A stretch of DNA of 7,181 nucleotides from Bacteroidales bacterium (GTDB lineage: Bacteria > Bacteroidota > Bacteroidia > Bacteroidales > ML635J-15), in assembly GCA_028696755.1 (NCBI GenBank), contig JAQVGK010000178.1, forward strand, positions 1 through 7,181. Reading direction: 5' to 3'. A model generated the notes under the pieces. That model ran no database searches and was not told the origin of the DNA. It saw only the letters and a program-made list of their open reading frames with translations. The position numbers and the translations under genes were made by a program. The first letter of the stretch is position 1; every line of letters starts with the position of its first letter. This document shows positions 1,075 through 7,181 of the stretch, piece after piece.

Positions 1075-1149
1075 GAGTTATTAGCTCAGTTGGTTTAGAG
1101 CACTAGCTTGACAGGCTAGGGGTCACTGGTTCGACTCCAGTATGGCTCA
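1075..1149 (+). tRNA. tRNA-Val (anticodon GAC)
   Basis: The cloverleaf can be drawn in full. The acceptor stem pairs 1075-1081 with 1142-1148 (two G-U pairs) and the discriminator is A1149. The D stem is GCTC (1084-1087) with GAGC (1098-1101). The anticodon stem is CTAGC (1103-1107) with GCTAG (1115-1119), around a loop carrying GAC at 1110-1112, which reads valine codons GUC/GUU. The T arm is ACTGG-TTCGACT-CCAGT (1125-1141). The CCA end is not encoded. An integrase gene begins about 200 bases downstream, reading away from the tRNA, so the 3' half of this gene is the probable attachment site of the element to the right, which must have restored an intact tRNA. Confidence 0.95.
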
Positions 1150-1160
1150 CAAAATTTGAA
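1127..1160. other. Probable attL (tRNA 3' end)
   Basis: The T arm and 3' acceptor strand of tRNA-Val, plus the bases just after it, form the likely crossover region of the element whose integrase follows. Known tRNA-targeting tyrosine integrases usually leave a direct repeat of the tRNA 3' end at the far end of the element. I find no second copy in this window, so attR must lie beyond position 7181 and the exact crossover cannot be fixed here. The call is an inference from gene order. Confidence 0.55.
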
Positions 1161-1356: not shown

Positions 1357-2598
1357 ATGGCTTCAATATCAATTATTTTAGACAATAGAAAACCTGGTAT
1401 AGATGGTAAATTTGCTGTTAGGCTAAGATTAGCTCATAATTCAAAAACTCGATACATAACGCTGCCATATCGCTTAACCGAAGCTGAATGGGACTTCTCA
1501 AACTCAAAAATTAAAAAAACTTGTACTAGTTACTATGCAGATAAAGAGAATTTTGCAATAGCTGATTTTAAAAGATCGTTCGAGGAATTTACAATTAAAT
1601 TAAATTATGAAGACGATATATTGAATTATTCTGCAGCAGATCTTATCGAGAAATTCAATAATTTAAAGTCCGGTAAAAGCTTGACATACGTGGATCAGTT
1701 GTTTGAAGCTTACATTAAGCTTAAATTAAGTGATAATCCTTCCGGTGGCACTGCGTATCTTTATCAAAATACACTTGCATTACTAAAAGCATATAAACCT
1801 GAGCGAATCAAGATCAAAGATATAAACACATCATTTCTAATAAATTTTGAATCTTATTTGAAAGGGATCAATCAGAAAACTAATACTATTTCAATAAATC
1901 TAAGGAACTTACGCTGCATCTATAATTACGCAATAAAAATTGGAGTGGTGGATATGAATTCTTATCCATTTAGAAATTTTAAAATTAAAAAAGAGAGAAC
2001 ATTACACAGAACTATTGAAATTAGTGATTTAAGAAAACTTCTCAAATATAAAGGGACTGAGGCACAGAACCAGGCACTTGATTTATTCAAATTAAGTTTC
2101 TTCTTGATGGGAATTAACTTTAAAGATCTATTATATGCGGAAAACGCAAAAATTTATAATGGGCGGCTTTACTTTAAGAGAGCTAAAACTGGTATTGATC
2201 ATTCAGTTAAAATAACACCGATCGCAAAAAAAATAATTGAAAAATATAAGGGCGAAGAGTTAATGTTGAACATTCTCGAAAATAAGTTGCTTTTCGCTAA
2301 AGAAAATAGAACAACTCAAATTCACACAGATGTTACTCGAACAGTCAATGATCATTTAAAGGATATTTGCACAAAGTTGAAAATAAATTTAGATGTGAGC
2401 ACATATTTTGCACGACATACATGGGCCACAATAGCTCGAAAAATCGGAATTGATTACGATATTATACAGTTAGCACTTGGACATTCAAACAATGATGTAA
2501 CGGCTGGTTATATTGAATATAATTTTGATTTAATTGATGCTGCAAATGTTGCAGTTATTGACTTTGTTATTAAAAATAGGATGCACAAAAAAACGTGA
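1357..2598 (+). CDS. Tyrosine recombinase/integrase of the element
   Basis: This 413-residue protein has the size and layout of Bacteroidetes phage/ICE integrases. An N-terminal arm-DNA-binding domain (about 1-90) is followed by a SAM-like core-binding domain (about 105-205) and a catalytic domain (about 215-405). Visible catalytic residues are Lys277 (RAKTG), Arg353 (ARHTW), His376 (LGH) and the nucleophile Tyr385 (TAGY). The first catalytic arginine, expected in the SFYLRG-type motif, is Met251 here (FFLMGINF), and the His of the HxxR box is Tyr350. Loss of the first arginine is known in the CTnDOT integrase, where it is Ser, so this need not mean inactivity. The gene points away from tRNA-Val, has its own promoter, and ends inside the palindromic terminator. 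It should excise and insert the element at the tRNA. No Shine-Dalgarno is seen; the leader is A-rich. Confidence 0.95.
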   Translation: MASISIILDNRKPGIDGKFAVRLRLAHNSKTRYITLPYRLTEAEWDFSNSKIKKTCTSYYADKENFAIADFKRSFEEFTIKLNYEDDILNYSAADLIEKFNNLKSGKSLTYVDQLFEAYIKLKLSDNPSGGTAYLYQNTLALLKAYKPERIKIKDINTSFLINFESYLKGINQKTNTISINLRNLRCIYNYAIKIGVVDMNSYPFRNFKIKKERTLHRTIEISDLRKLLKYKGTEAQNQALDLFKLSFFLMGINFKDLLYAENAKIYNGRLYFKRAKTGIDHSVKITPIAKKIIEKYKGEELMLNILENKLLFAKENRTTQIHTDVTRTVNDHLKDICTKLKINLDVSTYFARHTWATIARKIGIDYDIIQLALGHSNNDVTAGYIEYNFDLIDAANVAVIDFVIKNRMHKKT

Positions 2599-2642: not shown

Positions 2643-3050
2643 TTATAATAATTTTGACCCTGTAACTTTATCATTAGGATACCTTCTTTGCATTTTCTTT
2701 CCGGCTTCTTCCTTTGATTTTGCACCAACTCTATCAAAGCTTCTTTCAGGATCATTATTAAAGTAAACTTCATAAAGTTTTTCCAAAGGACTTTTTCTTT
2801 TAAATGTGCTTTGTTTATTTACTTGCTTTTTCTCTACACTTTTTTTTGCAGATTTTGCTTTAACGACTTCGTCCTTTTTCTTTACAGAATTTGATTTCTT
2901 TGCAGATGATTTTGCATTACTTTCATTCAGCTTTTTTAGCTTTGCGCGTCCTTTGGCCAAAGCTTTCTTTTGAGCTTCTGACAATACTCTTTTTTTTGCT
3001 GGATTTTTACCATCGCTTTTTTTCTTTTTGCCTTTAGTTGTAGTTGCCAT
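2643..3050 (-). CDS. Lysine-rich, histone-H1-like basic protein
   Basis: The product has 135 residues, about a quarter of them lysine (36 by my count). Residues 1-86 are low-complexity and probably disordered, built from Lys, Ala and Ser with runs such as GKKKK and KKKD, apart from one likely helix (about 22-41, LSEAQKKALAKGRAKLKK). Residues 87-135 look like a small folded domain (PLEKLYEVYF, then RRYPNDKV). The composition resembles H1-like bacterial proteins and implies binding to DNA or RNA by charge; the specific family is not recognised. It is the last gene of the leftward operon, 13 bases after the M23 gene, and its ATG is preceded by an AT-rich leader that resembles the one at the internal start of the large polyvalent gene. 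A role in coating or packing the element's DNA is a guess from composition and context. Confidence 0.85.
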   Translation of the reverse strand: MATTTKGKKKKSDGKNPAKKRVLSEAQKKALAKGRAKLKKLNESNAKSSAKKSNSVKKKDEVVKAKSAKKSVEKKQVNKQSTFKRKSPLEKLYEVYFNNDPERSFDRVGAKSKEEAGKKMQRRYPNDKVTGSKLL

Positions 3051-3063
3051 AATATTATAAAAT

Positions 3064-3546
3064 TTAAGTTAGATTAATGAATTTCACTTTCGCTGGATCA
3101 ATATATTTTTGAAGTTTTATCGAGAAAACAACAAAATGTAAATGAGGCCCCGTTGATCTTCCAGTACTACCGACTAAACCAATTTTTTCTCCAGCTTTAA
3201 TTTTTTGCCCTTTACGAACTAATACTTTGCTTAAATGACAGTAACCTGTATGTATTCCTTTTTTCTCATGTAGAATTCTAACACCGGTTCCACACATAGT
3301 ATCTTGCCATACGTTTATTACCTCTCCATCGAGAGGGCAAAGTATTGGAGTTCCAGTTTTTGCTGATAAATCAATCCCATTATGAAATTCTTTTGAACCA
3401 AATAGAATGCGATATCCGAATCCTGATCCAACAGCAGCACCTTTTAAAACCTTTGCGGAGTTGTTGAACATTCTGGATAATAGAATAGCAGTAGCAATTG
3501 CAGTACCACCAAAAATCCCGATTCCTATTTTTTCTATTTTATTCAT
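3064..3546 (-). CDS. Membrane-anchored M23 (LytM-type) endopeptidase
   Basis: I choose the ATG at 3546 (160 residues). A start 9 bases further upstream at 3555 would be TTG and overlap the preceding gene, whereas ATG 3546 follows that gene's TAA with one base between (TAAAATG), suggesting coupled translation. Residues about 5-24 form one hydrophobic segment, so the enzyme is probably anchored in the inner membrane with its domain in the periplasm. The M23 zinc site is complete: His55 and Asp59 (HNGID), His104 (CHL), and His135/His137 in HLH. Family members cut peptide cross-bridges of peptidoglycan. Almost nothing besides anchor and catalytic domain is present, so it is a minimal hydrolase. 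In phages and conjugative elements such enzymes open the wall locally for DNA transfer or lysis, which fits the neighbours. Activity is well supported; the role in transfer is inferred. Confidence 0.92.
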   Translation of the reverse strand: MNKIEKIGIGIFGGTAIATAILLSRMFNNSAKVLKGAAVGSGFGYRILFGSKEFHNGIDLSAKTGTPILCPLDGEVINVWQDTMCGTGVRILHEKKGIHTGYCHLSKVLVRKGQKIKAGEKIGLVGSTGRSTGPHLHFVVFSIKLQKYIDPAKVKFINLT

Positions 3547-3547
3547 T

Positions 3548-6220
3548 TTATTCAAAAACAGTCATTTCTCCTTTACCGCCAAACCTATTCTTTTGACCAA
3601 TGGAACTTACAACACCATTCGACGCTTTTAAAACACAATCAACATCATGCGCATAAGTTTCTTCACCTCTAAAAATGCCGTCCTTAGTTACCTGAAAAAC
3701 AAAAATCTTAAGCAAATTAGGATATTGCTTTTGTATAGCTCTAATATCATCAGGTTTCAAATTCAAAGATTGTACACTGTCATAAATTGCATAATCAAAT
3801 GAAGAAAGATCATCAGGGATTTCCTTATATAATTCTATACCAGGAATATTAGCTTTAAGCCTTAAAACTTTTTCTTGCATTGTATATGACTTTCCTTCCT
3901 CATTAGAAATGTAAGCAACTTTTTCATTTTGTTCTGCCACTGCTTTTGAAAGCATAATTAGAAATGTACTTTTGCCAGCTCCAGGACCACCAAAAATCAT
4001 TATTGAACCACCTTTTTCAGGTTTTCCAACAATACTATCAAATTCACTTGGTAATGATTTTAATTCAAAGCGAATTTTTGCAAGTTCACTAAATGAAATT
4101 GACTCATTATCATTCGAGTTAGTGTTTAAATTTTTGTCTTCTTCTATCCCAGCTAAAGAGCTAGTTTTTTTCTTAACTGGAGAAGACATTTTCTTAAGAA
4201 AGTCATAGTTATCAATATTTACTTTTACATGAGTTGCTTTTGATCTCTTACATTCAGTTTCTAGGCTTTCAATTCTCTTAGCCAGCAAACCAATATTAGC
4301 ATCTTTTGACTTAATAAATACTTCTCTGATAATCGTAATCGCTCCAATTGGAACAGTTTTATTATCAAGATCCGTAAATAGTCTTACGTAACTTTCTGTT
4401 GCAAGTGATTTAGATTTATCAATGCCAAATAAGCTCTTTTGTTGAAAATTTTGTTTTGTGCGCTCATCGTAGTATTTTGAAATTACTAACGCAACATTGT
4501 AAGCAGAACCGTCAGTTCCAATAAGTTCTTTACCTAGCTGATTGAGTTTCTTATTATCAAGAGATCCTCTTTCGTAGGCAACTTGTAAAATCTTATAAGC
4601 AGCTTGATCTTTTTTGTTCTTTAAGTACTGTATGGCCTCTGCAAAATATGTGTCTTTAGTGTCAGATTTATCAGTGGTTGAAATAGCTTTTTCAGCCTTA
4701 TCAAATTCTCTTGATTGCATTGTCTCTGGAACTAAATTGTCTAAGTCGATTCCTTCGATCAAATAGTTAACAGCATCACAAGCGAATTCATAAGCTTCGA
4801 GCAAGTTTTTGTCCTTATCTCCTTTTGCTTGGCCAGCCCAGCCGCGTAAATATGTTACAGAATTAACTCTATTGTATTGTAATCCCATAAGATCACACAG
4901 AATATTTGCTCCAATTTCTGCAACTAATTCTTCATTTGCATAAGCAAGTTTTGATTTACCACGGCCAAGACGGTTCGGGTTATTAGTTGAATGTATTATT
5001 TCGTGAAAAAGTGTGCTGTAATATTCTGCAATTTCTTTAAACTGTTTCACTTGAACAATGTGAATTTCGTCTTTGCTGTAAATTGGTGGATTTGATACAT
5101 AATATGCTTTGTCAGCTTGATCATAATATACTTTGGGAATTCTTTTAAGCTTTTTCAGTTGATTCAAGAAGTTCTCAATATATTCATTTAACTCATGTTC
5201 TTTAAATTGTGATAAATGATATTTTGGAGCCTTAACACCTTTTACATAATCAACATTTATTACAGAATGCAATTTAGGAAGTCTAAATTTTACATGAACT
5301 GTCTTTGTTACCTTTGATTCTTCTGTAATTGGAATAAAGCTAATCGCGTTGATGATTTTATCCTTGTCAAGAATTTCACCACCTTCGCTCTTAAGTTTCT
5401 TTAATGTGATAAAATAAGGAGAGTTTCCAACCTTTTCTTTCATTTGAAAGATATTATAAGCGTTGTTGTAAATGTTGCCATTTACATTTTTGAATCCTAG
5501 AATAACTTTTCCTGAGTTGTCAAAAATCAGAGATGGGATCCAGGGCTTTTCCCATTTTGTGAAAAGGAATGTTTTTATATCATTCAGCAACTCAATTTTA
5601 AACTTTTCTTTATCATCTTTCCATCCATCTAAGCCTAAAAAGCCTTGAAAATCAAATTTTTTTGCCATAATATTTCTTTTTGAATTAGTATTTTTAATAA
5701 TTTTGTTGCGAGATTTTAAGTGTATGCTAATTAAAAGGGTTTTATAATTCGGCTTGAGATCATTAGCAAATCCCAACAGTGCCGTGATGCTATCATTTTG
5801 ATAGATTATTTGACCCTCACTTAAAATCTTTTTTATTTGGGTATGTCTTCGAGGGTGATTAGATACTACGTTTAGTTCTTCGTCTGAATCAACAAAAGAA
5901 ACAAAGAATAGTGTTCCTTCAAATTTGAATGTCTTAATATAACATAATCTTAAAATTCCATTTCTATCTTTTGATTTAACAATTAAAAGAGGATTCGACA
6001 AAGTTGGTTTAATTAAACCATAATATTTCTGACGAAGTTTGTTTTCGACTTTAAGAAACTGATCTATGTCAATTATTGATATTCCTAATGGGGTTTTTAC
6101 TTCTGAGTTTGGCCCGAAGTCATTTAAAAATGCTTGAAATGAGAATTGCTTTTGTGGAAAGTTGTCAGCAAGTTCAATCAAAACATTCAAGAGTTTTTCT
6201 ATGTCAGCAAATTTCTTCAT
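3548..6220 (-). CDS. Polyvalent protein: PBECR-like nuclease, ArdC, zincin, RadA-like ATPase
   Basis: The 890 residues fall into four parts. (1) About 40-150 resembles the PBECR nucleases of polyvalent proteins: KTPLG (42-46), IKPTLSNP (70-77), YIKTF (94-98), VVSNHPRR (118-125). (2) About 190-300 is ArdC-N-like, ssDNA-binding in known ArdC: KPWIPS (225-230), a YNNAYN segment, then a FITLKKLKSEGG run (260-271 region). (3) About 330-495 is an ArdC-type zincin with HEIIH (406-410) and EELVAE (430-435). (4) About 715-890 is a RecA-fold ATPase with Walker A GGPGAGKS (744-751), Walker B ending IYD (812-814), a DSVQSL motif as in RadA, and KNRFG (877-881), the RadA signature. Residues 500-700 are mostly helical with no recognised family. 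ArdC proteins counter restriction during DNA entry; the ATPase may act in recombination or branch migration. Residues 2-184 contain no Met, and Met185 (codon at 5668) has a better leader, so a shorter product without the nuclease is possible. Domains 2-4 are secure, the nuclease assignment moderately so. Confidence 0.88.
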   Translation of the reverse strand: MKKFADIEKLLNVLIELADNFPQKQFSFQAFLNDFGPNSEVKTPLGISIIDIDQFLKVENKLRQKYYGLIKPTLSNPLLIVKSKDRNGILRLCYIKTFKFEGTLFFVSFVDSDEELNVVSNHPRRHTQIKKILSEGQIIYQNDSITALLGFANDLKPNYKTLLISIHLKSRNKIIKNTNSKRNIMAKKFDFQGFLGLDGWKDDKEKFKIELLNDIKTFLFTKWEKPWIPSLIFDNSGKVILGFKNVNGNIYNNAYNIFQMKEKVGNSPYFITLKKLKSEGGEILDKDKIINAISFIPITEESKVTKTVHVKFRLPKLHSVINVDYVKGVKAPKYHLSQFKEHELNEYIENFLNQLKKLKRIPKVYYDQADKAYYVSNPPIYSKDEIHIVQVKQFKEIAEYYSTLFHEIIHSTNNPNRLGRGKSKLAYANEELVAEIGANILCDLMGLQYNRVNSVTYLRGWAGQAKGDKDKNLLEAYEFACDAVNYLIEGIDLDNLVPETMQSREFDKAEKAISTTDKSDTKDTYFAEAIQYLKNKKDQAAYKILQVAYERGSLDNKKLNQLGKELIGTDGSAYNVALVISKYYDERTKQNFQQKSLFGIDKSKSLATESYVRLFTDLDNKTVPIGAITIIREVFIKSKDANIGLLAKRIESLETECKRSKATHVKVNIDNYDFLKKMSSPVKKKTSSLAGIEEDKNLNTNSNDNESISFSELAKIRFELKSLPSEFDSIVGKPEKGGSIMIFGGPGAGKSTFLIMLSKAVAEQNEKVAYISNEEGKSYTMQEKVLRLKANIPGIELYKEIPDDLSSFDYAIYDSVQSLNLKPDDIRAIQKQYPNLLKIFVFQVTKDGIFRGEETYAHDVDCVLKASNGVVSSIGQKNRFGGKGEMTVFE

Positions 6221-6269: not shown

Positions 6270-6911
6270 TTAGAACCACCGTTCCCGTTTTATATAAACT
6301 ACCCTATTGTAAATAAATCTAGTTTTTGGATTTTTCGAGGTAATGGTAACTAGCAGGGGCCTTTTTCTAAAAAGAAATGGATCATACCATTTGTCGTATT
6401 TCCCTCGATGCACAACTTGAACTAGACTGTCAATGATCTCAAATTTTAGATTCTTTATTTTGTTTTGCTGAATTGTTCCTGAAATACTATTAAAAGAATC
6501 GCTGTAACTAAATGCACTTACTAAAGTATCATCAATAATAACAGTATCATATTTGAATTGAAAACTGTAAATTATATCGCTGGTTATTGAAGTTGTTGTA
6601 TTGTACATTTCAACTCTTTTTAACTTAATTCTGAGATCATTAAGTTCTTTTTCCATGCCAGGAATCGTAATTTGCTTAGCCTCATTTAATGACAATTGCA
6701 GAACTTTGTTTTCATAAGCAAGCCTGTTTGATTTTGTTCGATAAACTCTAGTGTCGCTTAGTGCAGCATCTACATTACTAATTTGTCTATTTGAGTTTTC
6801 GACAAACTCAAAATATGTTATGACTAACCAACCTATACCACAAATTGCAGATAATACCCACAACGGAGCATAAGGGTATTTATTAATAATCTTCTTGATA
6901 ATCGTCCACAT
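6270..6911 (-). CDS. Membrane-anchored coiled-coil protein, DUF6549-like
   Basis: The 213-residue protein has one transmembrane segment near the N-terminus (about 16-33) preceded by basic residues, so the remainder probably faces the periplasm. A heptad-like helical region follows (about 55-105). The C-terminal part (about 105-213) appears beta-rich and ends with a pattern (FLFRKRP at 180-186, then ITSKNPKTRF at 190-199) that I associate with DUF6549 proteins of Bacteroidetes prophages; this rests on memory of the pattern. Anchor, coiled coil and periplasmic domain resemble inner-membrane spanin (Rz) architecture, so a lysis or envelope role is possible but unproven. Its ATG follows the stop of the upstream gene by one base (TAATATG), indicating coupled translation, and a terminator hairpin follows its own stop. 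Confidence 0.8.
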   Translation of the reverse strand: MWTIIKKIINKYPYAPLWVLSAICGIGWLVITYFEFVENSNRQISNVDAALSDTRVYRTKSNRLAYENKVLQLSLNEAKQITIPGMEKELNDLRIKLKRVEMYNTTTSITSDIIYSFQFKYDTVIIDDTLVSAFSYSDSFNSISGTIQQNKIKNLKFEIIDSLVQVVHRGKYDKWYDPFLFRKRPLLVTITSKNPKTRFIYNRVVYIKRERWF

Positions 6912-6912
6912 A

Positions 6913-7181
6913 TTAAATGCTTTTTATTGTTGCTTCGGTTTGCTTAAGTGCGGCGTTTGTCATTACACTTCTCATAATTGTGTATCGTGCCATATTAGTA
7001 TCTTTCTGACTAAGAAGCATGTGTAAAATTTTAACAAATGTTTCTCCAATCACACCATCTATTCCACCGTTTTTATCAATCTCTTGTTTTGCTTTTGGGT
7101 TAAGAGAAAAATAAGTTTGTATCTTTTTGATTGCAGATTTTGCGAAGGTGTATCGCTTTTTTCCAATCGCAATTGAATTTG
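6913..7181 (-). CDS. 3' end of an unrecognised gene (cut by window edge)
   Basis: Reading leftward from the right edge, 88 codons are open without a stop and end at TAA (6915-6913), one base before the ATG of the DUF6549-like gene. The start lies outside the window. The visible C-terminus is mixed charged and helical, with no membrane segment. A short stretch GIDGVIGETF (about 39-48 of the visible part) recalls the glycine-rich loop of peptidoglycan-binding domains, but the match is too weak to name a family. The tight junction places it in the same leftward operon. Codon usage is like that of the next gene. Confidence 0.75.
   Translation of the reverse strand, partial: NSIAIGKKRYTFAKSAIKKIQTYFSLNPKAKQEIDKNGGIDGVIGETFVKILHMLLSQKDTNMARYTIMRSVMTNAALKQTEATIKSI

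Follow-up and report, generated by a model that had tools for sequence, protein, structure and literature searches.

A polyvalent PBECR2-ArdC-zincin-ATPase protein from a Bacteroidales bacterium, and the setting of its relatives among predicted tailless proviruses

The 7,181-nt stretch analysed here (contig JAQVGK010000178.1 of a Bacteroidales bacterium; the whole stretch is called the window, and coordinates count from its first letter) carries on its minus strand (3548..6220) a gene for a protein of 890 amino acids (aa), which we read, on balance, as the polyvalent payload protein of an integrated tailless virus with a single-jelly-roll capsid (a provirus) in a Bacteroidota host, probably at tRNA-Val. 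The open reading frame (ORF) is open throughout, and the single chain and four modules that the initial annotation had proposed, including the HEIIH metallopeptidase, were borne out by Pfam, R388 ArdC and 5lkm matches. The PBECR nuclease that had been placed at residues 40-150 gave a significant match to PBECR2 at residues 41-141 (5798..6100, minus strand; Pfam PF18810, E 7e-11, 42.8 bits, above the Pfam cut-off of 27.1); invariant PBECR2 residues were found across four sequences, and this part is likely an RNA-cutting enzyme. The ArdC-like part (residues ~199-365; 5126..5626, minus strand) was recognized by the match of R388 ArdC to residues 247-475 (E 3.5e-15), a structure match over residues 205-492 of the predicted model, and a match of phrog_7245 to residues 221-495. 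The zincin and RadA-like matches expected from the initial annotation were obtained, whereas the Pfam ArdcN profile had no match in a Pfam scan with hits up to E 1; the ArdC N-domain is assigned from the R388 ArdC match and the predicted model, which was poor for the whole protein (mean pLDDT, the predicted local distance difference test score, 64). The zincin metallopeptidase occupies residues 368-470 (4811..5119, minus strand; Pfam PF18818, E 4.5e-19), with the zinc motif HEIIH at residues 406-410 (4991..5005, minus strand), and an ArdC fold joined to a zincin with HExxH and a distal Glu was found in the protein. A helical middle part (residues 511-705; 4106..4690, minus strand; from the secondary structure of the model) could be placed in no family, nor did it match the helical region of the stand-alone ATPase proteins described below. 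The RadA-like ATPase (residues 706-890; 3551..4105, minus strand) was identified by profile and structure matches, among them RadA 5lkm (E 2.4e-5), and by the ATPase profile; it has the Walker A motif GGPGAGKS (residues 744-751; 3968..3991, minus strand) and the KNRFG motif (residues 877-881; 3578..3592, minus strand), so that the RecA core and KNRFG, both features of RadA/Sms, are present. RadA/Sms also carries a zinc finger and a Lon-like domain; the window chain stops at the RecA core, the remaining domains of RadA being absent, and the full-length RadA profile scored below its cut-off (48 vs 403 bits, positions 61-271 of 454). At least two domains of disparate activity lie in one chain, as the term polyvalent protein demands, and that label was correct.

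The window holds about 6 kb of the element, which probably starts at tRNA-Val (gac; 1075..1150, plus strand; called as a tRNA, putatively the attachment site), followed by a tyrosine integrase of 413 aa (1357..2598, plus strand; Pfam PF00589, PF13102 and PF17293). A second copy of the tRNA end, as a right attachment site, was not found within the window. The genes between the integrase and the polyvalent gene are for a lysine-rich protein of 135 aa (2643..3050, minus strand; no family) and an M23 peptidase of 163 aa (3064..3555, minus strand; Pfam PF01551, E 9.5e-29; PHROG matches to metallo-endopeptidase and endolysin), the latter, as listed, overlapping the polyvalent gene by 8 nt and being likely a lysis or entry enzyme. 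On the other side, the polyvalent gene is adjoined by a gene for a DUF6549 protein of 213 aa (6270..6911, minus strand; Pfam PF20186, E 1.5e-24) and then by an ORF cut by the window end (6913..7179, minus strand; C-terminal 88 aa, no family); neither this ORF nor the lysine-rich one had relatives at useful E. A 283-aa ORF left of the tRNA (45-896), with a signal-like start and no family above cut-off in Pfam and PHROG, is probably a host gene. The sequence TATCTTTG (1058-1065), upstream of tRNA-Val, fits the Bacteroidota -7 promoter motif, which agrees with a Bacteroidota host. Note that the window reaches only 961 bp upstream of the polyvalent gene; because it ends before the expected position of a capsid gene, we infer the provirus nature of its own element.

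Relatives were collected with one protein search, in which the 7,997 candidates with the most shared words were scored, giving 53 proteins, one of them the window protein itself. Of these, 46 (45 of the 52 others) matched an ATPase profile from which the window protein had been left out; the seven without a match were P0008, P0017, P0037, P0040, P0042, P0049 and P0054. PBECR2 was found (precomputed Pfam) in the window protein and in only 2 of the 52 others, P0003 and P0004, where the block (51% identity over residues 3-173) is placed between zincin and ATPase. The order PBECR2-ArdC-zincin-ATPase was therefore seen once among the 53 proteins, and PBECR2 stands in front in the window protein only. 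Locus L165 has a 224-aa PBECR2 ORF ahead of one that encodes PBECR3 and the ATPase. Since PBECR2 is internal in P0003 and P0004 and a separate ORF in L165, the parts shuffle, the front PBECR2 being a rare variant. A search with residues 1-183 matched the window protein alone; this search is weak because it requires shared 5-residue words and missed P0003 and P0004. The viral_contigs set gave no relatives with the single window protein, and 564 with a profile, the best 80 of the 564 at 22-41% identity, mostly over the ArdC-zincin region.

The initial annotation had taken the terminal RadA motor for an undescribed combination. This view is rejected, because the ATPase is carried by the 45 relatives above and because Iyer et al. 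2017 (PMC5512222) describe SMS/RadA domains in polyvalent proteins of Bacteroidetes, mainly those of conjugative elements or plasmids, and suggest that the RadA part may handle incoming DNA. It had also been considered that close homologues without the fusion would point to a local joining of separate genes; such homologues are numerous as for PBECR2 but not as for the ATPase. The rare feature of the window protein, as far as its sequence and those of the relatives tell, is the N-terminal PBECR2 only.

Some relatives of the ATPase are stand-alone proteins (476-629 aa in those inspected), which pair a mainly helical-looking region with the same ATPase. On the profile made from them, the window protein scored 160 bits, P0005 173 and P0006 177, and the main polyvalent group 38-69. 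The helical part of the stand-alone proteins matched P0006 at 94 bits. In P0006 (residues 22-335, 610-838 and 894-1077) an ArdC-zincin body is followed by a helical-plus-ATPase module of the stand-alone type, as if two genes of the element had fused directly. In tree tests of whether it is a separate acquisition, the window ATPase gave approximately unbiased test values (p-AU) of 0.060 with the main clade and 0.231 with the stand-alone group, the groups having been named after the first tree. The ATPase profile built without the window also gave scores on other proteins: 33-48 bits for RadA-like host proteins of 449-458 aa, 71-74 bits for three 206-211-aa ATPases of bacterial genomes, and 73-75 bits for ATPases of the Mu-like phages p00 and Peternella. 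A 636-kb phage (L206, LR756504.1) encodes a stand-alone ATPase of 218 aa that has KNRFG and scored 171 bits on the stand-alone ATPase profile.

Of 56 Marinifilum-family genomes, 11 gave strong matches to the ArdC-zincin protein (E 1e-99 or better; next best, 2.4e-22), and a predicted single-jelly-roll capsid gene was found in exactly those 11; in every case both genes lie on one strand, at a distance of 2.7-2.9 kb. In 395 genomes of the class, 47 places were obtained at E 1e-20 or better; three of them (G002, G655 and G598:C9), matching ArdC or PBECR2 and not the ATPase, were set aside, and the 44 that remain are ATPase places, spread over 38 genomes. Matches to the capsid profile (E 1e-5) were found in 41 of the 395 genomes. 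For 24 of the 44 places, a capsid gene of the same strand lies upstream at a distance of 7.2-15.2 kb, and both genes occur in 24 genomes (hypergeometric p 5e-18, with relatedness uncorrected). At another 12 places the contig extends less than 15.2 kb upstream, so that the capsid gene is present at 24 of the 32 judgeable places; at the other eight (G361 twice, G362, G391, G422, G432, G462 and G563), at least 15.2 kb upstream was read with no capsid match. At the two G361 places (L160, 9259-15533; L161, 9969-16339), the ATPase is accompanied by a large protein, which in L160 is a Strawberry-notch helicase by Pfam, and a serine-recombinase-like gene; no capsid gene was found within 17 kb upstream, the capsid-like genes of G361 lying more than 30 kb away on the other strand, and these are possibly satellites or another kind of element.

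The conserved blocks of the relatives consist of the predicted jelly-roll capsid, a transglutaminase-like (TG) protein, lysis genes and, where seen, a recombinase; they are tied to relatives of both window parts, the ArdC-zincin body and the ATPase, in an association that is frequent, not universal. Relatives of the DUF6549 protein occur in 4 of the 13 capsid-positive ATPase contexts examined; those of L156 and L163 lie on the upstream side of the ATPase gene, and those of L173 and L174 in the same element as that gene. Neither the 50,697 phage records nor a pattern-based IMG/VR scan yielded a match for the capsid-like protein, and its model compared with a viral structure library put no named capsid on top (SPV1 VP4 at rank 47, E 2e-3). 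Proteins of 108 and 120 aa encoded next to the capsid-like gene are candidates for a second capsid protein. Among the 19 families matched by the 43 proteins of L163, L162, L002 and L005 (E 1e-3), there was no relaxase, type IV secretion system, terminase or portal; one L163 protein matches a tail-fibre PHROG, and ten proteins of L002, the related element of Marinifilum flexuosum DSM 21950, have few family matches beyond lysozyme. Five compact loci (L118, L119, L120, L122 and L005) each have a single convincing Walker A protein, the polyvalent ATPase (ORFs of at least 60 aa, one pattern only; the other pattern matches were the L005 lysozyme and a fibre-like protein of L118 and L122), which makes a virion or packaging role attractive. 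Beside the ATPase gene, RadC-like JAB domains fused to a helicase were observed in L158 (6492-11639) and L164 (10724-15913); in L163 (8886-9524) the RadC-like JAB is probably a gene of its own (one of the 43 scanned proteins matches RadC), and L121 (10821-11423) resembles such a gene, judged by eye.

A cultured phage with comparable genes is Salisaeta icosahedral phage 1 (SSIP-1), which is tailless and membrane-containing according to its record annotation and other papers. Among the 50,697 phage records, the TG protein matched SSIP-1 only (two records; gp34, E 1e-3), and on the SSIP-1 proteins alone the TG profile gave gp34 at E 1.5e-12 and the GH108 profile gave gp31 at E 4e-10. The capsid profile gave nothing convincing on SSIP-1 (best E 0.91). 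The ATPase profile built without the window gave SSIP-1 gp40 at 64 bits; set against the other ATPases (33-171 bits), gp40 is RadA-like and only a possible orthologue of the element ATPases, and in the tree it sits on a long branch that groups with host RadA. The RefSeq record annotates gp40 as an ATPase and notes it as 'structural protein'; for gp43 (2,319 aa, with methyltransferase and ParB_N domains) it gives DNA methyltransferase and structural protein. In a review (PMC4124505), gp40 appears as a predicted packaging ATPase. The gp43 gene (L123, 25400-32359) reads like that of a polyvalent protein in a tailless phage. Other papers assign SSIP-1 to the viruses with a vertical single beta-barrel (PMC4958249, PMC5332951 and PMC6356626); the kingdom of that group has been transferred to a new realm, Singelaviria (PMC12714852). 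The NCBI taxonomy keeps SSIP-1 unclassified.

If the window gene encodes such a payload protein, the RadA-like ATPase would be the virion or packaging-type ATPase of the virus, and the domains fused to it would be carried inside the particle. After entry, the zincin may cut its own chain or a host target, the ArdC part may shield single-stranded DNA from restriction (ArdC of R388 helps conjugation past restriction, PMC7213743), and PBECR2 may cleave host RNA of a defence system, RNA cleavage by PBECR domains having been predicted by Iyer et al. 2017 (PMC5512222).

The element may instead be a tailless provirus whose ATPase works as a RadA-like branch-migration motor on incoming DNA in the recipient, not in packaging; we regard this as a tentative second choice. 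KNRFG and the RadA-like fold agree with it, and Mu-like phages have a RadA-like ATPase next to transposition genes. The initial annotation, like Iyer et al., had proposed the processing of incoming DNA, which is possible; it is not favoured because the relatives adjoin a predicted capsid gene and because gp40 of SSIP-1, a RadA-like ATPase and possible orthologue, carries a structural annotation; moreover, the compact elements hold no other convincing Walker A protein. Less probable is a conjugative or plasmid-type element, in which the RadA part would handle incoming single-stranded DNA in circularisation or integration and the ArdC part would block restriction. This is the setting proposed by Iyer et al. 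2017 (PMC5512222) for RadA-type polyvalents, and it is a point against the payload reading that the ArdC-zincin part is common on plasmids, with relatives in 1,806 of 72,556 plasmid records (924 predicted conjugative). However, none of these records holds 80% of the window protein, identities are below 60%, no relaxase or type IV secretion family was found in the 43 proteins, the capsid-like gene occurs in the same 11 of 56 genomes, and M23 with DUF6549 fits a lysis module. A cargo gene of a tailed prophage, with the provirus-like relatives as another branch, is improbable: the integrase and M23 peptidase fit, DUF6549 relatives are found equally beside the amidase/endolysin of Bacteroides phages with a portal gene, and MuF-C, a head-protein domain of tailed phages, is present in many retrieved relatives (precomputed Pfam), but the 69 of 50,697 phage records that match the window protein all do so below 60% identity and none covers 80% of it, and the close relatives adjoin the capsid-like gene, neither a terminase nor a portal family having turned up in the 43 scanned proteins. 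That PBECR2 lies outside the working protein, because translation begins at Met185 or because the loss of a stop joined two genes, is doubtful in a similar degree, since the internal ATG at residue 185 just before the conserved part of the family and the front position of PBECR2 in one of 53 proteins stand against a frame open throughout, the same block internal in P0003 and P0004, and the PBECR2 of L165, which also precedes an ATPase protein.

Returning to the payload reading, Iyer et al. 2017 (PMC5512222) credited RadA polyvalents for the most part to conjugative elements or plasmids; if the relatives belong to tailless proviruses, anti-restriction payloads would be attached to an ATPase that has, in SSIP-1, a counterpart listed among the particle proteins, and fusion to the ATPase would be a simple, testable way to load effectors. 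The capsid-like gene, in the 41 genomes and without a phage-record match, points to a group of virus-like elements. It is conceivable, though we would not put it higher, that these form a widespread, so far unlisted Bacteroidota lineage of small tailless single-jelly-roll proviruses with a RadA-like virion or packaging motor, in which anti-defence enzymes are fused to that motor, so that the packaging machine would carry this payload into the particle and on into the next cell.

As for known systems, SSIP-1 shares the TG-like and endolysin genes with the element relatives, and in its record a RadA-like ATPase (gp40) and a very large protein of several domains (gp43) count as virion components; SSIP-1 differs in its 43.8-kb genome and in giving no ArdC-zincin match at useful E. 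With the SMS/RadA polyvalents of Iyer et al. 2017 (PMC5512222), the window protein shares a RadA-like ATPase joined to other domains, zincin and ArdC hubs, and occurrence in Bacteroidetes, whereas its domain order is the single one noted above and its relatives adjoin a predicted capsid gene. The protein is a variant of this published class; as far as open-licence papers show, its novel aspect appears to be a setting among predicted tailless proviruses. The Marinifilum zincin-like protein P0009 (588 aa) has an ArdC-zincin body about 56% identical (residues 197-504) and a C-terminal ATPase, but it is without PBECR2, the ATPases are only 27% identical, and it scores 53 bits vs 160 on the stand-alone ATPase profile. 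ArdC of R388 (6i89, 6sna) has the same ArdC fold and zincin with HExxH and distal Glu at about 26% identity, without PBECR2 or ATPase. RadA/Sms (5lkm, 8rxc) shares the RecA core, Walker A and KNRFG, whereas the match of the window ATPase is confined to the part of the RadA profile given above and the window ATPase is fused to other domains.
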